Positions 27,901 to 47,090 of a DNA stretch of 64,000 bases are shown one piece after another (positions within the stretch are counted from its first letter, which is position 1; the number at the start of each line of letters is the position of its first letter). Source of the stretch: Dastarcus helophoroides (taxonomy: Eukaryota > Arthropoda > Insecta > Coleoptera > Bothrideridae); the NCBI GenBank assembly GCA_028583605.1, contig CM053327.1, positions 18,959,629-19,023,628 of the forward strand, written 5' to 3'. The position numbers and the translations under genes are program-made. Below the pieces are notes generated by a model that saw only the letters and a list, made by a program, of their open reading frames with translations, ran no database searches and was not told the origin of the DNA.

Positions 27901-27947
27901 ATAAGTGTTCCAGACAGAGACTAAATAGACTGAACATTTCAATGCTG

Positions 27948-28118
27948 AGATAATAAGCCTTGTATATACGAATATATACAAGTTTATTACGATGCAATTG
28001 AAATCTAATTTCATTAGAATCTAATGAAAATTAGACTGCAATTGCAAAGTTCACGTAGATGAGGCAAAGCTTGTATCACGGGTTGCATCGCAACATCCAT
28101 AGATACAAACGTCCTCGG
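27948..28118 (-). repeat. Inverted partial monomer at 5' side
   Basis: The reverse complement matches 28511-28686, from CCGAGGACGTTTGTATC to GGCTTATTATCT. It abuts the first direct monomer part, making a large inverted repeat with arms of about 95 bases (centred near 28082). It lacks the ribozyme portion. An inverted 5' piece is typical of Penelope insertions and of twin-primed LINE insertions. Confidence 0.85.
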
Positions 28119-28350
28119 CAATTGCAGTCTAATTTTCATTAGATTCTAATGAAATTAGATTTCAATTGCATCGTAATAAACTTGTATATATTCGTATATA
28201 CAAGGCTTATTATCTCAGCAGAGAGTAATGCTTCAATTAGCATGTAGCGAAAATGTTTGCGTGATAAACAGTTAAAAGTCAGTTACAAGTCACCCAATGG
28301 AGGTTTGCTCTCTTGGATACTTATACGACTGACTAACGGCTTTAAATTGG

Positions 28351-28429
28351 AAGTGTGTACAACCACCGTACCATGCTGACGAGGCCAAGGAAGGCCGAAA
28401 CTAGTCTATGGTTGCGGTTGTACATATTT
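28351..28429 (+). ncRNA. Type I hammerhead ribozyme, copy 1
   Basis: Core CUGACGA 28376-28382; stem II GGCC 28383-28386 with GGCC 28393-28396 and a six-base loop; GAAA 28397-28400; minimal stem III with A28400/C28401 pairing with U28405/G28404 around UA; cleavage base C28406 (GUC triplet). Stem I inner helix is 28370-28375 with 28407-28412 (6 bp, one G-U). An internal loop ACCGU against UGC follows. The outer helix is 28356-28364 with 28416-28424 (9 bp perfect), extendable to 28351-28429 with wobble pairs. Every conserved position of the fold is satisfied. Confidence 0.9.
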
Positions 28430-28816
28430 TCAATTTTAAGCACGTTTAACTGTTTAATTACAGAACATTTAATTGGTCATTTGTCAAAACTAGATGAAAG
28501 TAAAGTCACGCCGAGGACGTTTGTATCTATGGATGTTGCGATGCAACCCGTGATACAAGCTTTGCCTCATCTACGTGAACTTTGCAATTGCAGTCTAATT
28601 TTCATTAGATTCTAATGAAATTAGATTTCAATTGCATCGTAATAAACTTGTATATATTCGTATATACAAGGCTTATTATCTCAGCAGAGAGTAATGCTTC
28701 AATTAGCATGTAGCGAAAATGTTTGCGTGATAAACAGTTAAAAGTCAGTTACAAGTCACCCAATGGAGGTTTGCTCTCTTGGATACTTATACGACTGACT
28801 AACGGCTTTAAATTGG

Positions 28817-28895
28817 AAGTGTGTACAACCACCGTACCATGCTGACGAGGCCAAGGAAGGCCGAAACTAGTCTATGGTTGCGGTTGTACATATTT
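28817..28895 (+). ncRNA. Type I hammerhead ribozyme, copy 2
   Basis: Identical to copy 1 at every base of the fold, shifted by 466. Core CUGACGA 28842-28848, GAAA 28863-28866, predicted cleavage after C28872. Cleavage at both copies would release a 466-nt RNA (28407-28872) with 5'-hydroxyl and cyclic phosphate ends, suitable for ligation into a circle. Confidence 0.9.
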
Positions 28896-28956
28896 TCAAT
28901 TTTAAGCACGTTTTACTGTTTAATTACAGAACATTTAATTGGTCATTTCAATGCTG

Positions 28957-29559
28957 TCTCATGCGTTCAGTTGAAGCTAAAATGCGGGGTAGTGGGAAGC
29001 TGCACCCCACTACTCTTGGACATGGCCGGATTAAGTTAAATTTATAAATACGAAACTTGCCGCGTAACGGTTCTAACGATTTAGATGAAACTTTAGAATT
29101 AGGGGCTTTTGGACCAATAGGATAATTTTTACAAGTGCTTTTTGGTAAAAGTTCAGGAGAACTATTTTCAAAGACATCTTGGTTTAATAGTAAAATAATT
29201 TTCTTTCAATACGCGACGCCTGTGTACAATATTGTCAAGCCGGTGCTGTAAACACGTCATGATTGCAGTGAAATGGCGGCGCGCGCACGCCGATAATTGA
29301 ATATTTATATATTTCATTTTTACCTACCCAAAGAATGAAACTCTTGATTTTCCTTCACTAATGTGTTCACTGAGGTTTCAACAATGATCCACAATACACT
29401 TCCCCATATTTTCAGGCCGTTTTCTAAAAAAAACCCCGATGTTATGTTCGCAACGGTCTGTCAAATAATGAGAGTGCTGGGTTGAGCTAGGCTTCCGCCA
29501 GGCTTTCAACTGGCTTCACTGCTTACCGTCTTACGTTCAGTCTATTTAGTCTCTGGTTC
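28957..29559. other. Flank of retrozyme, no gene seen
   Basis: The stretch contains a small hairpin (GTAGTGGG at about 28988-28995 with CCCACTAC at about 29005-29012). It ends in GTTCAGTCTATTTAGTCTCT (29535-29554), the exact complement of 27916-27935. This 20-bp inverted pair encloses the retrozyme and its right flank and may mark an older element. Confidence 0.5.
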
Positions 29560-35035: not shown

Positions 35036-35087
35036 GTAGTTCATTTTTTTGGATGAATTTCTTCCTCTCGTAGTACGAAATACGAGA

Positions 35088-35225
35088 AAAAGGAGCGTAG
35101 AAAACCAACGGCGCATGAAGAAAACCAAGATTTAGTAGATGCTGCTGTTGTCCAAGATCCGCACTTAAGAACCAGAAGAATAAGTGTGACATTACAAATA
35201 AGCCAAAAATCGGTTTCATGATTGT
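35088..35225 (+). pseudogene. Transposase HTH fragment, inverted duplicate
   Basis: The plus strand encodes YEKKERRKPTAHEENQDLV, then AAVVQDPHLRTRRISVTLQI and SQKSVS, a diverged copy of residues about 58-110 of the minus-strand fragment at 35041-35685. The two copies face each other, so the locus can fold back on itself. It ends at 35225 in CATGATTG. Confidence 0.8.
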
Positions 35226-35685
35226 TGTGTAAAAACAAGTCCAAAAAGTCATTTTGTTCTTGTAGTTTTCGTAACGCCCACTCACAAAACTGCATTCGGT
35301 TGTTGAAATCAGCTTGATTGAGTTCCTGTACTAGCTGGACACGATACGGATGAAACTTATTTTTACGCAAGATTCGTGAAACCGAGGTTTGACTTATTTG
35401 TAATTCCGTGCTTATTATTCTGGTACTTAAATGCGGATCTTGGACAACAGCAGCCGCTACTAAAACTTGGTTTTCTTCATGCGTCGTTGGTTTTCTACGC
35501 TCCTTTTTCTCGTATTTCGTACTACCAGTTCGCTCAAACCTCTCTCCCAATTTAGCGAATGCCGCTGAATTCGGATGTTTCCGATCGGCAAAGCGTTGGG
35601 CATAAGTTCTTGAGGCAAGAAATGGATTTCTGTCAGCACTGCCCAAGGCGTAAACCATATCGACCAATTCTTCTTGAGAAAACAT
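35226..35685 (-). pseudogene. DUF4817/mariner-type transposase N-terminus
   Basis: Starts MFSQEELVDMVYALGSADRN at 35685, then FADRKHPNSAAFAKLGERF and TGSTKYEKKERRKPTTHEEN, AAAVVQDPHLSTRIISTEL, QISQTSVSRILRKNKFHPYR and NRMQFCEWALRKLQEQ. This is the insect DUF4817 helix-turn-helix followed by the second HTH of Tc1/mariner-like transposases. The catalytic DDE/D region, normally next, is absent: after WALRKLQEQNDFLDLF the open frame runs to 35041 through the antisense of the inverted duplicate. Full-length relatives are about 350 residues, so this is roughly the first 145. Confidence 0.82.
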
Positions 35686-35689
35686 TGTC

Positions 35690-36605
35690 TTTCACTACTA
35701 ATACCAAGACCTCGCGACAACAATGAGATAAACTGTCAGTTATTGCCGGACAAACGAGACGAAACAAAACCGCGACATCCAGGGCTAACGCGATAATACG
35801 AAATTAATTAAAATTTTTACAAAATTCTAAATTTCTCAAAAATTATTGGACGGAGGTGGCAATACCTGGTACCAAAAAAAGGTAATTTAATTTCGCATCC
35901 GATAAGATAATTCAAGATAGGTGGTTCCATTTGAAAAAATTAAGTTATGCATGTTTGCACAACTGAAGAATTGAGTCGACGGATGTGAAGAAATTTAAGA
36001 AACCTTGCTAACAGCAAAGACGTAAACAAATACTCCATTTCTTCCTGAATCTAAAACCGTATGCCACACAACTCTGAGTCATTGCGTTTGGAAAATATCG
36101 TTAATGGCGTCAAGTTCCGAAATCGTCAAATTTAACCAAAAAATTAAATTACGCGAAAACCGTTCAACTAAGGGCCTATGTCATCTTGATACATTTATAT
36201 TCATTTTTAACAAGGAATCAAAAAATGTAAAAATACATAGGGTGTTCTATTTAAAATAAGAAAGTTGTGTTCATTTCCTGTGCAACCGGAAGGCCGCCAT
36301 ATTTGGCAATAATTTAAGGTTGTGAAGAACTTTATGTTGAACAACTTTTATTCCAAAATTTTTCGATATTTTGAACGATACGCCTACCAAAGACCGATTC
36401 CCGCTTAGTGACTCACCCTGTAGAAAAGCGATGTGTAAAAATTTTTAAATATTGAATGGCTCAAATTATATTTTAATTCAGCTGCTTATGTCGGCCCCCT
36501 TAAGGTGGTGCCTCTTTGCGTCATAGCACGGCACGGTCCTGAGTAACTTCATATAACAATAACGATTATTTACCAAATTCGTGGATGCTGTCCGTCCCGA
36601 ATTGT
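35690..36605. other. Intergenic DNA with foldback-like fragment
   Basis: At about 36236-36421, ATAGGGTGTTCTATTTAAAA, AATAAGAAAGTTG and a distal GACTCACCCTGTAG resemble the ends of the foldbacks at 37674 and 58338. The short terminal repeats match only loosely, so this is probably a deleted foldback. The rest is unrecognised. Confidence 0.4.
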
Positions 36606-44459: not shown

Positions 44460-47090
44460 ACAATTTTACCTTTTTTTTTGCTCATTAAAATTCGACTTTA
44501 TTCTCGAAATTACGACTTTTTCTAGAGAGCTTCATTTTTTCTCGAAATTTCTGATTTGTGAAATATTTTTTCGAATCGAATTTTAAATTTTTTAGAATTG
44601 TGTTCTTTCTCCAGAAATGTTTATTATTATACTTTCTTTTTGAGATGTTGACTATAACTTAGATTTGGAATTTTGGAATTTAAACTCGAAATATACTTTA
44701 TAAGCCTTGGATATTTCTTGAAATATTACCCTCTTTTTCTCAAGATTTTTAGTTAAAACTTGATATTATTAGTTTTTTTACGTGTCAATTTTAGTTTCAA
44801 GATTAAAAAATAATATTCTCAAACTGACGATGATTGTAAATAATACACAACTTTTTTTTTTATTTTTAAATTGAAACTTGCAAATTTCAACTTCAAGGCA
44901 GTAAACTGTTTTGGTAGGTTTATTAACTTTTTTTAATTATTTCTTTTTTTTTTCGATATGTTCGCCTTTCAATCTCGAAACTACAACTAAATATGGAATT
45001 TAAATAAAAAATTACTTTTTATTTCTTAATTTTCGATTTTACTCAAAATTTATTTTCTAGATTTTTTGGTTTTCTAGATATTTTCATGCTATTCACTTTT
45101 CCTTTCTTTTCTTTTCTTCTCTTTTCTTTCCTTTTCTTTTCCTTTCTCTTCTTTTCTTGGTAATGTTAAATTTAACTTTCGAAAATTAATTGCAAATTCC
45201 ATCTTCCTTGCAAGATATCGACTTTTTAATTTTCAAAATTTTCTCTTTTATTTTCTGGAAGAGGTGGCTTTAAATTTGAAGTTTCGATCTTTATCCTAAA
45301 ATATTGCGTCTACACTTTAAAAATTGCGAAAGTTTTTCAGAGAAGAAGAAAGAAGTCAAATTTTAGGAAAAATTTCAAGGGAAAAAGTCAAAATTTTAAG
45401 AAAAGATCGAAATTTAGACAAAAAAGTTTGCAGTTTTCCAGAGAATTTAAATTTTGAGAAAAAATTTGAAATTTTGAGAACAAACGATTTAAAAAATCCA
45501 AAACTTTTGATAAAGTCGAATTTTCAGAAAATTGATAAAATAATTTCGAAAGAAAAGAAAATGTCGATAAAACTTTCAGTTTCGAGAAGAGTATTGAATT
45601 TTAAAAAATGGTCAAAATTTCTCAGAGAAAGTCAAATTTTAAGAAAAAAAATCAAATTTTTAGATTTGAAAATCGATGAATTTTGTTCGAAATACATACT
45701 GAAATTTCTAGAGAAAGCTTAATTTAAAAAAGTGATTTCGAAAAAAATGAATTCGTCAAAAGTTGTCCAAAAAAAAGCAAAAATTTTAGAAAAAGACTTC
45801 GAATTTTGTACAACAGATTGAAATTTACAGAACAAATTTAATAACCTGAAATTTTCAGACAAATCTAAATTTTGTTAAAAATTCATAAAATTTCGAAAAG
45901 AGAAATTCTAAAAAATTGAAAGCCTAAAGAAAATTGTCGAACTTTTTCAGACAGTCGAAATTTTTCAGAGAAGAAGAAAAAAATATGCAATTTCCAGAGA
46001 AATAAGTTTTGACAATAAAATGAAATTTCGAGAACGACGAATTAAAAAAAAAACTCCAAAGTTTCCGATAAATCATATTTTGAGAAAATTGCTAAAATAA
46101 TTTCTAAAGAAAAGAAAATGTTAATAAAACTTCTACTTACGAGCAAAAGTATTGAATTTTAAAAGAAGGTCAAAATTTCCCAAAAGAATCAAATTTTAAG
46201 AAAAAATCAAATTTTGAGATTTGAAAATAGATGAATTTAGTTCGAAATAAAAGTTGAAATTTCCAGAAAAAACCGAATTTAAAAAAAAGAGATTTCGAAA
46301 AAAATAAATTTGTCTCAATTTCTCAAAAAAGATAAAATTAAAAAAAAAATGTCAAATGTTCAGATAAATTCAAATTTTGATAGAATTGGTAAAATAATTT
46401 TGAAAGAAAAGACAATGTTGATACAACTTTCAGTTTCGAGAAAAATGTTGAACTTGAGAGAAAGGTCAAATTTTAGGAAAATAAATTAAATTTTCAGATT
46501 AAGTCTGACATTTTAAAAATTGACGAATTTCGTCGAAAAAGCGCAGCTTGCAGAAACAATAAAATGTCGAATTTCAAAAGTGGACGAAAACAACCGAATT
46601 TTCCGAAACAAGTCGAAATTTGTAGAAAATAAATAAAAATTTAAATGTTCAGTAAAAATCAATAACTTGGGCAAAATGGCTAAATTTAAAAAAAGGACGA
46701 ATTTAAAAAGAATATAGGAATTTTTGAGGAAAGTGTTAAAGTGTTGAAGGTCAAAATTTTCCAAAGAAAGTCAAATTTTGAGATTAAGTCAAACATTTTG
46801 GAAATATATAGATAAATTTCGTCGAAAAAAGCGCAGCTTGCAGAAACAATAATATGTTGAATTTTAAAAGTGGACGAAAACAACCGAATTTTCCGAAACA
46901 AGTCCACATTTGTAGGAAATAAATAAAAATTTAAATGTTCAGTAAAAATCAATATTTGGGCAAAATGGCTAAATTTAAAAATAGGACGAATTTAAAAAGA
47001 ATATACAAATTTAGAGGTAAATGGTAAAGTGTTGAAGGTCAAAATTTCCCAAAGAAAGTCAAATTTTGAGATTAAGTCAAACATTTTGGA
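44460..47090. repeat. AT-rich repeat block with 280-bp tandem units
   Basis: Degenerate TCGAAATTTT phrases with strand polarity changing near 45300. From about 46530 two units of roughly 280 bases repeat: GCGCAGCTTGCAGAAACAAT, GTGGACGAAAACAACCGAAT, ATTTAAATGTTCAGTAAAAA and ATGGCTAAATTTAAAAA. A third lies at 48340-48540 beyond the jockey-like LINE, which therefore inserted into the array. The 132-codon Lys-rich frame at 45324-45722 is a repeat translation. Confidence 0.7.
45098..45158. repeat. Pyrimidine-rich (TTTTC)n tract
   Basis: Some 60 bases made almost only of TTTTC, TTTCC and TCTTC units, all pyrimidines on the plus strand. Confidence 0.85.

Follow-up and report, generated by a model that had tools for sequence, protein, structure and literature searches.

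Animal non-LTR retrozymes, as described in PMC7229834 through its discussion, are tandem units of 170–400 nt with type I hammerhead ribozymes, a low GC content, target duplications over 4 bp and a highly self-paired RNA; two-armed head-to-head insertions and two fixed start sites do not figure in that description. One of their ribozymes, Amex1 of the axolotl, has a stem III of a single pair closed by a palindromic loop, and its cleavage is weak in a single ribozyme and stronger in a dimer (PMC7229834). The same pages describe plant LTR retrozymes, whose dimeric hammerheads give circular RNA but are of type III, and which carry LTRs, a primer-binding site and 4-bp duplications. Penelope-like elements were named there as a strong candidate for bringing retrozymes back into the genome, without proof (Cervera and de la Pena 2020, PMC7229834).

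Penelope-like elements have a hammerhead, arms placed head-to-head, a tail on one inverted end, duplications of 8–10 bp and an internal start of reverse transcription tens of nucleotides past the ribozyme cut, according to the relevant sections of PMC3846280 and PMC11167929. Bdelloid copies are reported with inverted pLTRs, 8–10-bp duplications and, in some cases, a tail at one inverted pLTR, and in that report the layout is ascribed to self-priming on antisense RNA (PMC3846280). For Anolis, the experimental sections of PMC11167929 describe a Penelope protein that cuts and extends both target strands, starting internally on the RNA at two neighbouring sites, one at either end of the tail; by subtraction of the published positions, the start is a stem-loop 85–92 nt past the hammerhead cut. 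Top and bottom strand showed no apparent difference in start site in those sections, ribozyme mutations were without effect on insertion in vitro, and the main substrate was unprocessed RNA (PMC11167929). Strand-specific start sites and a circle are therefore both unnecessary in that system, which counts against the insertion mechanism proposed below. Retrozymes and the inverted arms of Penelope are thus already known.

The window analysed here is the whole 64-kb stretch of DNA. Its plus strand carries the hammerhead core CTGACGAGGCCAAGGAAGGCCGAAACTAGTC twice, at 28376–28406 and 28842–28872, exactly 466 bp apart. A search with a general hammerhead pattern gave three matches in the window (these two cores and 20226–20196 on the minus strand), where 0.08 matches were expected and none of 100 shuffles reached three; the window is AT-rich, and the count exceeds chance for such sequence. 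The regions that hold the two main hammerheads with their full stem I, 28339–28441 and 28805–28907, are identical, and over the longer comparison of 28118–28482 with 28584–28948 only one of 365 positions differs (28448/28914), outside the hammerhead fold. The features of this pair are:

28339–28441, plus strand: hammerhead copy 1, stem I complete; core 28376–28406, predicted cut after C28406
28805–28907, plus strand: hammerhead copy 2; core 28842–28872, predicted cut after C28872
28407–28872, plus strand: unit predicted to be released, 466 nt; minimum free energy of the circular fold -162.8 kcal/mol, GC 0.371

An earlier note on this DNA had proposed two identical, complete type I hammerheads at this spacing, and most of its account was confirmed. 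The core is intact and the ribozymes are of type I, open through stem I. Stem II is GGCC/GGCC as the note had it, with four pairs and a 6-nt loop; stem I consists of two helices around an internal loop, as also claimed, with six proximal and 21 distal pairs (G-U counted); and the cleavage positions proposed, 28406 and 28872, are correctly placed on the fold. The two-pair stem III of the note has to be given up, since it would leave a loop of 2 nt, which would be sterically unreasonable. Stem III reads instead as a single A15.1–U16.1 pair capped by the palindromic tetraloop CUAG, an arrangement like that of the axolotl ribozyme as described in PMC7229834. Because the loop is palindromic, ACUAGU of one ribozyme could pair with ACUAGU of another. 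A monomer with a single-pair stem III may be predicted to cleave poorly. The covariance search that the note had suggested gave a divided answer: at Rfam gathering cut-offs nothing matched anywhere in the 64-kb window, and under permissive settings RF02275 (Hammerhead_HH9) matched both copies at 22.5 bits (E 0.0079 over 1,101 bases), below its curated cut-off of 52. A curated Rfam hammerhead match is a supporting sign for the retrozyme class and not its definition. Among the first 40 insertions dissected, 103/105 ribozymes with both stem I strands fit the core pattern and two fail.

The element is more than the plain tandem dimer that had been described. It is a composite, spanning 27943–28948, of a tandem sense arm and an inverted arm of 177 nt that is 100% complementary to 28510–28686, and it is flanked by 13-bp duplications. 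With unit position 1 set at 28407, the first base after the predicted cut, its parts are:

27935–27947, plus strand: left 13-bp target-site duplication CATTTCAATGCTG; last 5 bases common to the inverted arm
27943–28119, minus strand: inverted arm (B-arm), from unit 280 back to 104; start site B lies at its outer end
28118–28948, plus strand: sense arm (A-arm), 1.8 units, from unit 178 to unit 76; start site A lies at its outer end
28944–28956, plus strand: right 13-bp target-site duplication CATTTCAATGCTG; first 5 bases common to the sense arm
28477–28497, plus strand: start site A region, unit 71–91; hairpin loop 28484–28490, formed only when the whole unit is folded; overlap with box 2
28680–28689, plus strand: start site B region, unit 274–283; short hairpin with loop AGCA at 28683–28686
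28302–28317, plus strand: box 1, GGTTTGCTCTCTTGGA; resembles part of a second element at 20.3 kb

The predicted empty site, made of the two flanks and one CATTTCAATGCTG, was matched across the junction at 94–100% in all 40 places scored of 825 candidates, and CATTTCAATGCTG was single-copy at these 40 places. Thus, the target is a member of another repeat family. Perfect inverted ends of 21 bp (27915–27935 and 29535–29555) surround the retrozyme insertion and suggest that the abundant repeat hosting it is probably a DNA transposon.

Copies were counted across the host genome (538.9 Mb, 50 contigs). The exact 31-nt core occurs 567 times and its reversed control not once. Among 100 of these 567 places, 22 of the 27 close neighbours on the same strand lie exactly 466 bp apart, which supports a retrozyme-like identity. 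Close neighbours on opposite strands, in the same 100 places, are head-to-head in 13/13 cases and never tail-to-tail. Pattern scans of viral contigs, a set that may omit near relatives of the host genome, returned 0 and 0. We dissected 60 loci. Sample 1 comprised 40 loci (the window and 39 others) scored of 1790 candidates and is biased to young copies; L001–L008 were duplicates of other loci and were left out. Sample 2 comprised 20 further loci chosen by position on contig 1, leaving out two sample 1 places and the box-2 places of a family of about 300 bp. For the analyses of ends, junctions and duplications in sample 1, alignment pieces under 45 nt were dropped (small extras, at L036 and L044). 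The same limit was used in sample 2, with a cut-off of 20 for flipped loci; a 31-nt piece of L073 was dropped, L082, with a B arm of 22 nt, was taken without this filter, and L089 was scored by one piece only.

The ends at which reverse transcription would have started fall into two narrow zones of the unit. In sample 1, 60 of 61 such ends lie in A (unit 76–87, 37 ends) or B (unit 277–287, 23 ends), windows that were chosen after the first table of ends had been seen; the only exception is an end of L012 at unit 453. The two zones are also combined in a regular way. Among two-armed insertions, 20/21 in sample 1 and 9/11 in sample 2 (within 75–87 and 273–287) have one end in A and the other in B, which gives 29/32 over both samples, while A+A or B+B was found in 0/32. 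If ends were independent, 29 mixed insertions out of 29 would have a probability near 1e-9, the other three two-armed insertions being set aside. In sample 2, L073 (258/83) and L075 (273/100) each have one end outside the A/B windows, and the insertion at L092 is in three pieces and does not read clearly. Single-armed insertions end in A in 17 cases and in B in two in sample 1; those of sample 2 end in A at L079, L081, L089 and L091, in B at L074, L085 and L088, and in neither at L076. No poly(A) was seen at the insertion ends examined.

In the predicted circular fold, start site A has a 7-pair hairpin with the loop UCAAAAC (78–84), and the ends lie in and beside this loop; the hairpin is absent when 60–125 is folded alone. 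Start site B begins in the loop AGCA (277–280) of a 3-pair hairpin. The triplet UCA is present at unit 78–80 and at 275–277, and nine of the 23 B ends fall exactly at 277, against only 4/37 A ends exactly at 80. A start motif common to A and B is at best suggested.

An inverted arm joined to a sense arm within one target duplication is also the outcome of twin priming, which produces the 5' inversions of LINE-1. Applied to the present element, twin priming would have a LINE enzyme start at the 3' end of the RNA, with the second strand primed at a chance internal complementarity. The geometry is alike, and both outer ends of the window copy show short microhomology (TGCTG and CATTT), both in favour of this reading. 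However, the second site is confined to 277–287 (23/61 ends) instead of being scattered, and, unlike LINE-1 5' inversions, the retrozyme has fixed internal starts at both ends and no poly(A) where ends were examined. We consider LINE-like twin priming unlikely. As a one-off event behind the window copy it was dropped, since copies elsewhere show fixed start sites.

Next, we considered the target duplications, the junctions between arms and the relation of the two arms. Two-armed insertions of sample 1 have an exact duplication of 10–14 bp in 19/21 cases (7 bp at L009, 5 bp at L012), and none of 420 mismatched flank pairs reached 8 bp. Single-armed insertions of sample 1 kept 10 bp or more in only 4/19 cases (control, 1/342 mismatched pairs). 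In sample 2, whose copies are more diverged (pieces 87–100% identical), 9 bp or more was kept in only 4/11 two-armed insertions (control, 1/110). A cruder control within loci, with shifted flanks, gave means of 3.2–8.0 bp and maxima of 14–30 at four loci. The inner arm junctions are scattered along the unit, and the inner ends closest to the ribozyme cut are at unit 461 and 16. In sample 1 the arms overlap by 1–13 nt in 13/21 insertions and by 54 nt in L010, abut in two, and are separated by gaps of 2–15 nt in five. The arms are long: 52/61 exceed 466 nt and the longest has 2082 nt. Arms that run beyond one lap would require a circle or an uncleaved multimer as template, not a cleaved linear monomer.

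With ten letters dropped at arm ends, minor variants were common to both arms in 35/88 cases within one insertion and in 199/2414 between insertions, a sharing that fits one template RNA for both arms. L010 contributed 27 minor variants in one arm to this comparison, probably through misalignment of the palindrome. In direct comparison, arms of one insertion differed at 49 of 7446 positions and arms of different insertions at 2108 of 152228; for most insertions, an arm of some other insertion matches as well as the partner arm.

The tendency of minor variants to be common to both arms would also follow if the inverted arm were made by self-priming on an antisense transcript or by snap-back of the first cDNA, and self-priming is the published reading of the same head-to-head layout in bdelloid Penelope, in the part of PMC3846280 that treats it. 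Snap-back would be expected to fix the point of turn-around and to let the outer end vary, and the opposite is observed, with fixed outer ends and scattered inner junctions, so we regard such an origin as rather improbable. That the tandem and inverted copies are no more than satellite DNA, or rearrangements of later date in which a hammerhead happens to lie, is highly improbable and largely refuted for the dissected young two-armed copies: tandem arrays do exist and single-armed copies often have no clear duplication, but copies are dispersed, with target duplications and an empty site, and the close opposite-strand pairs are head-to-head in 13/13 cases and never tail-to-tail among the 100 places of 567.

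The outer ends and their pairing, the duplications, the empty site and the head-to-head order of the arms are observed in the genomic copies. From them we infer that the 466-nt tandem-unit transcripts would self-cleave at the hammerheads and then circularise, and that the two target strands would be cut some 10–14 bp apart by a reverse transcriptase/endonuclease of presumably Penelope type. Both cut ends would be extended on circular or multimeric retrozyme RNA, one strand primed at A, 76–87 nt past the ribozyme cut, and the other at B, 277–287 nt past it, perhaps by two reverse transcriptase subunits. Both cDNAs would run towards the 5' end of the RNA, often for more than one lap, and would then be joined head-to-head, often via short microhomologies. 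In all, the retrozyme RNA, as a circle or a multimer, is likely to be reverse-transcribed by Penelope-type machinery that starts on both cut strands of the target.

A Penelope-like way of working is well supported for the retrozyme. Its insertions have the head-to-head arms and the tail on one end that are seen in Penelope (29/32 retrozyme insertions; 4/4 identified copies of PLE1, a resident Penelope-like family). The element is not itself a Penelope element, because the open reading frame for reverse transcriptase and GIY-YIG endonuclease that Penelope-like elements carry is missing: the 466-nt unit, circular reading included, has no open frame above 89 aa. Extension of both target strands, as inferred here for the retrozyme, was obtained in vitro for Penelope in the experiments of PMC11167929. 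The spacing of the start sites differs, being about 200 nt in the retrozyme against a tail of 30–40 nt in Penelope, going by the published passages.

Structure supports filing the element as a non-autonomous animal non-LTR retrozyme. The earlier note had pointed to a retrozyme; dimeric type I hammerheads, the lack of an open reading frame, the duplication and the 567 cores uphold this, and the simple tandem form has had to be revised. The traits of animal retrozymes are present: short tandem units without an open reading frame, a GC content of 0.371 (under 45%) and a duplication over 4 bp, and the tandem type I hammerheads and strong self-pairing of the RNA are as outlined in PMC7229834. The 466-nt unit lies outside the 170–400 nt given there, which is a reported size range and not a definition. 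The dimeric arrangement is also that of plant LTR retrozymes, whose ribozymes are of type III in that account and not of type I as here. In a literature search, mainly of titles and abstract openings, retrozymes with two start sites or with consistently mixed ends were unreported; an earlier description is possible.

Penelope-like elements are plentiful in the host genome, with at least 91 GIY-YIG matches at E 1e-3 or better among 150 scored of 1070 candidates. PLE1 has a minimal hammerhead with a palindromic CGCG loop III, and its copies have two kinds of end: one follows ..TTTCA, about 61 nt beyond the cut, and the other carries an additional tail that closes with ..CCACCA. In all four two-armed PLE1 copies identified (L053, L065, L067 and L095/L096), a tailless end is combined with a tailed one; L095/L096, whose middle part is not in the data, was counted as one copy. 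Flank sequence of 11 bp is shared at L053, 7 bp at L065 and 8 bp at L067. At L050 there are two tailed ends on opposite strands, which we take as separate insertions because they face each other 1.1 kb apart. As read from these copies, the end pairing of PLE1 follows the same rule as that of the retrozyme, at a shorter spacing. Among the resident Penelope elements, none was found with the retrozyme's own start-site sequence, and that of PLE1 differs. At the loci of a second family, PLE2 (L093, L094), no hammerhead was found, and the only retrozyme match there is a 135-bp piece elsewhere in L094.

Three further observations concern these loci. At L057 (1227–1333), 108 nt that are 76% identical to the retrozyme hammerhead region adjoin a PLE1 copy and run on the strand opposite to it, perhaps as an old insertion or perhaps as a sign of kinship; at L053 (65–1467), retrozyme pieces lie within a PLE2 copy and adjoin its endonuclease match; and at L058, near a minus-strand pattern match at 2726, CCTAA is repeated close to a GIY-YIG match. 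Read on the complementary strand this is TTAGG, the common telomere repeat of arthropods, which hints at an arthropod host.

The two fixed, mixed ends constitute a readable record of insertion and tie retrozymes to the Penelope mode of insertion. We tentatively suggest that the RNAs of retrozyme and Penelope may both have two dedicated start sites, one per strand, used by a dimeric enzyme on one RNA, probably a circle; bidirectional target-primed reverse transcription would then be the normal process, and the one-sided tail would be the stretch between the sites. The A+B rule offers an explanation for the one-sided tail and the inverted arm of Penelope, and it predicts a short reaction that is testable in vitro.

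The third pattern match of the window, 20226–20196 on the minus strand, is another hammerhead candidate, a diverged one (HH9 at 21.5 bits with E 0.015, against a cut-off of 52), in an element at about 20400–19830. Box 1 lies upstream and box 2 downstream of its hammerhead, in the same order as in the main element, and it adjoins a 300-bp repeat with inverted ends of about 38 bp. It looks like a decayed retrozyme of a second type. Genome-wide, 1098 places (control, 1) contain the box TTTGTCAAAA-N-GATGAAAGTA, which is also found in an element of about 300 bp with inverted termini (L068–L072). This second box-2 family was rejected as a retrozyme, a hammerhead pattern being present in 0/5 loci examined. 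Elsewhere in the window, no further copy of the main element was found, apart from chance matches no longer than 25 nt, and no tRNA genes. An open frame of 216 aa at 35044–35691 (minus strand) resembles a transposase N-terminus by eye only, and a tandem repeat of about 290 bp occupies 46488–47090 in 2.1 copies with 91% matches.
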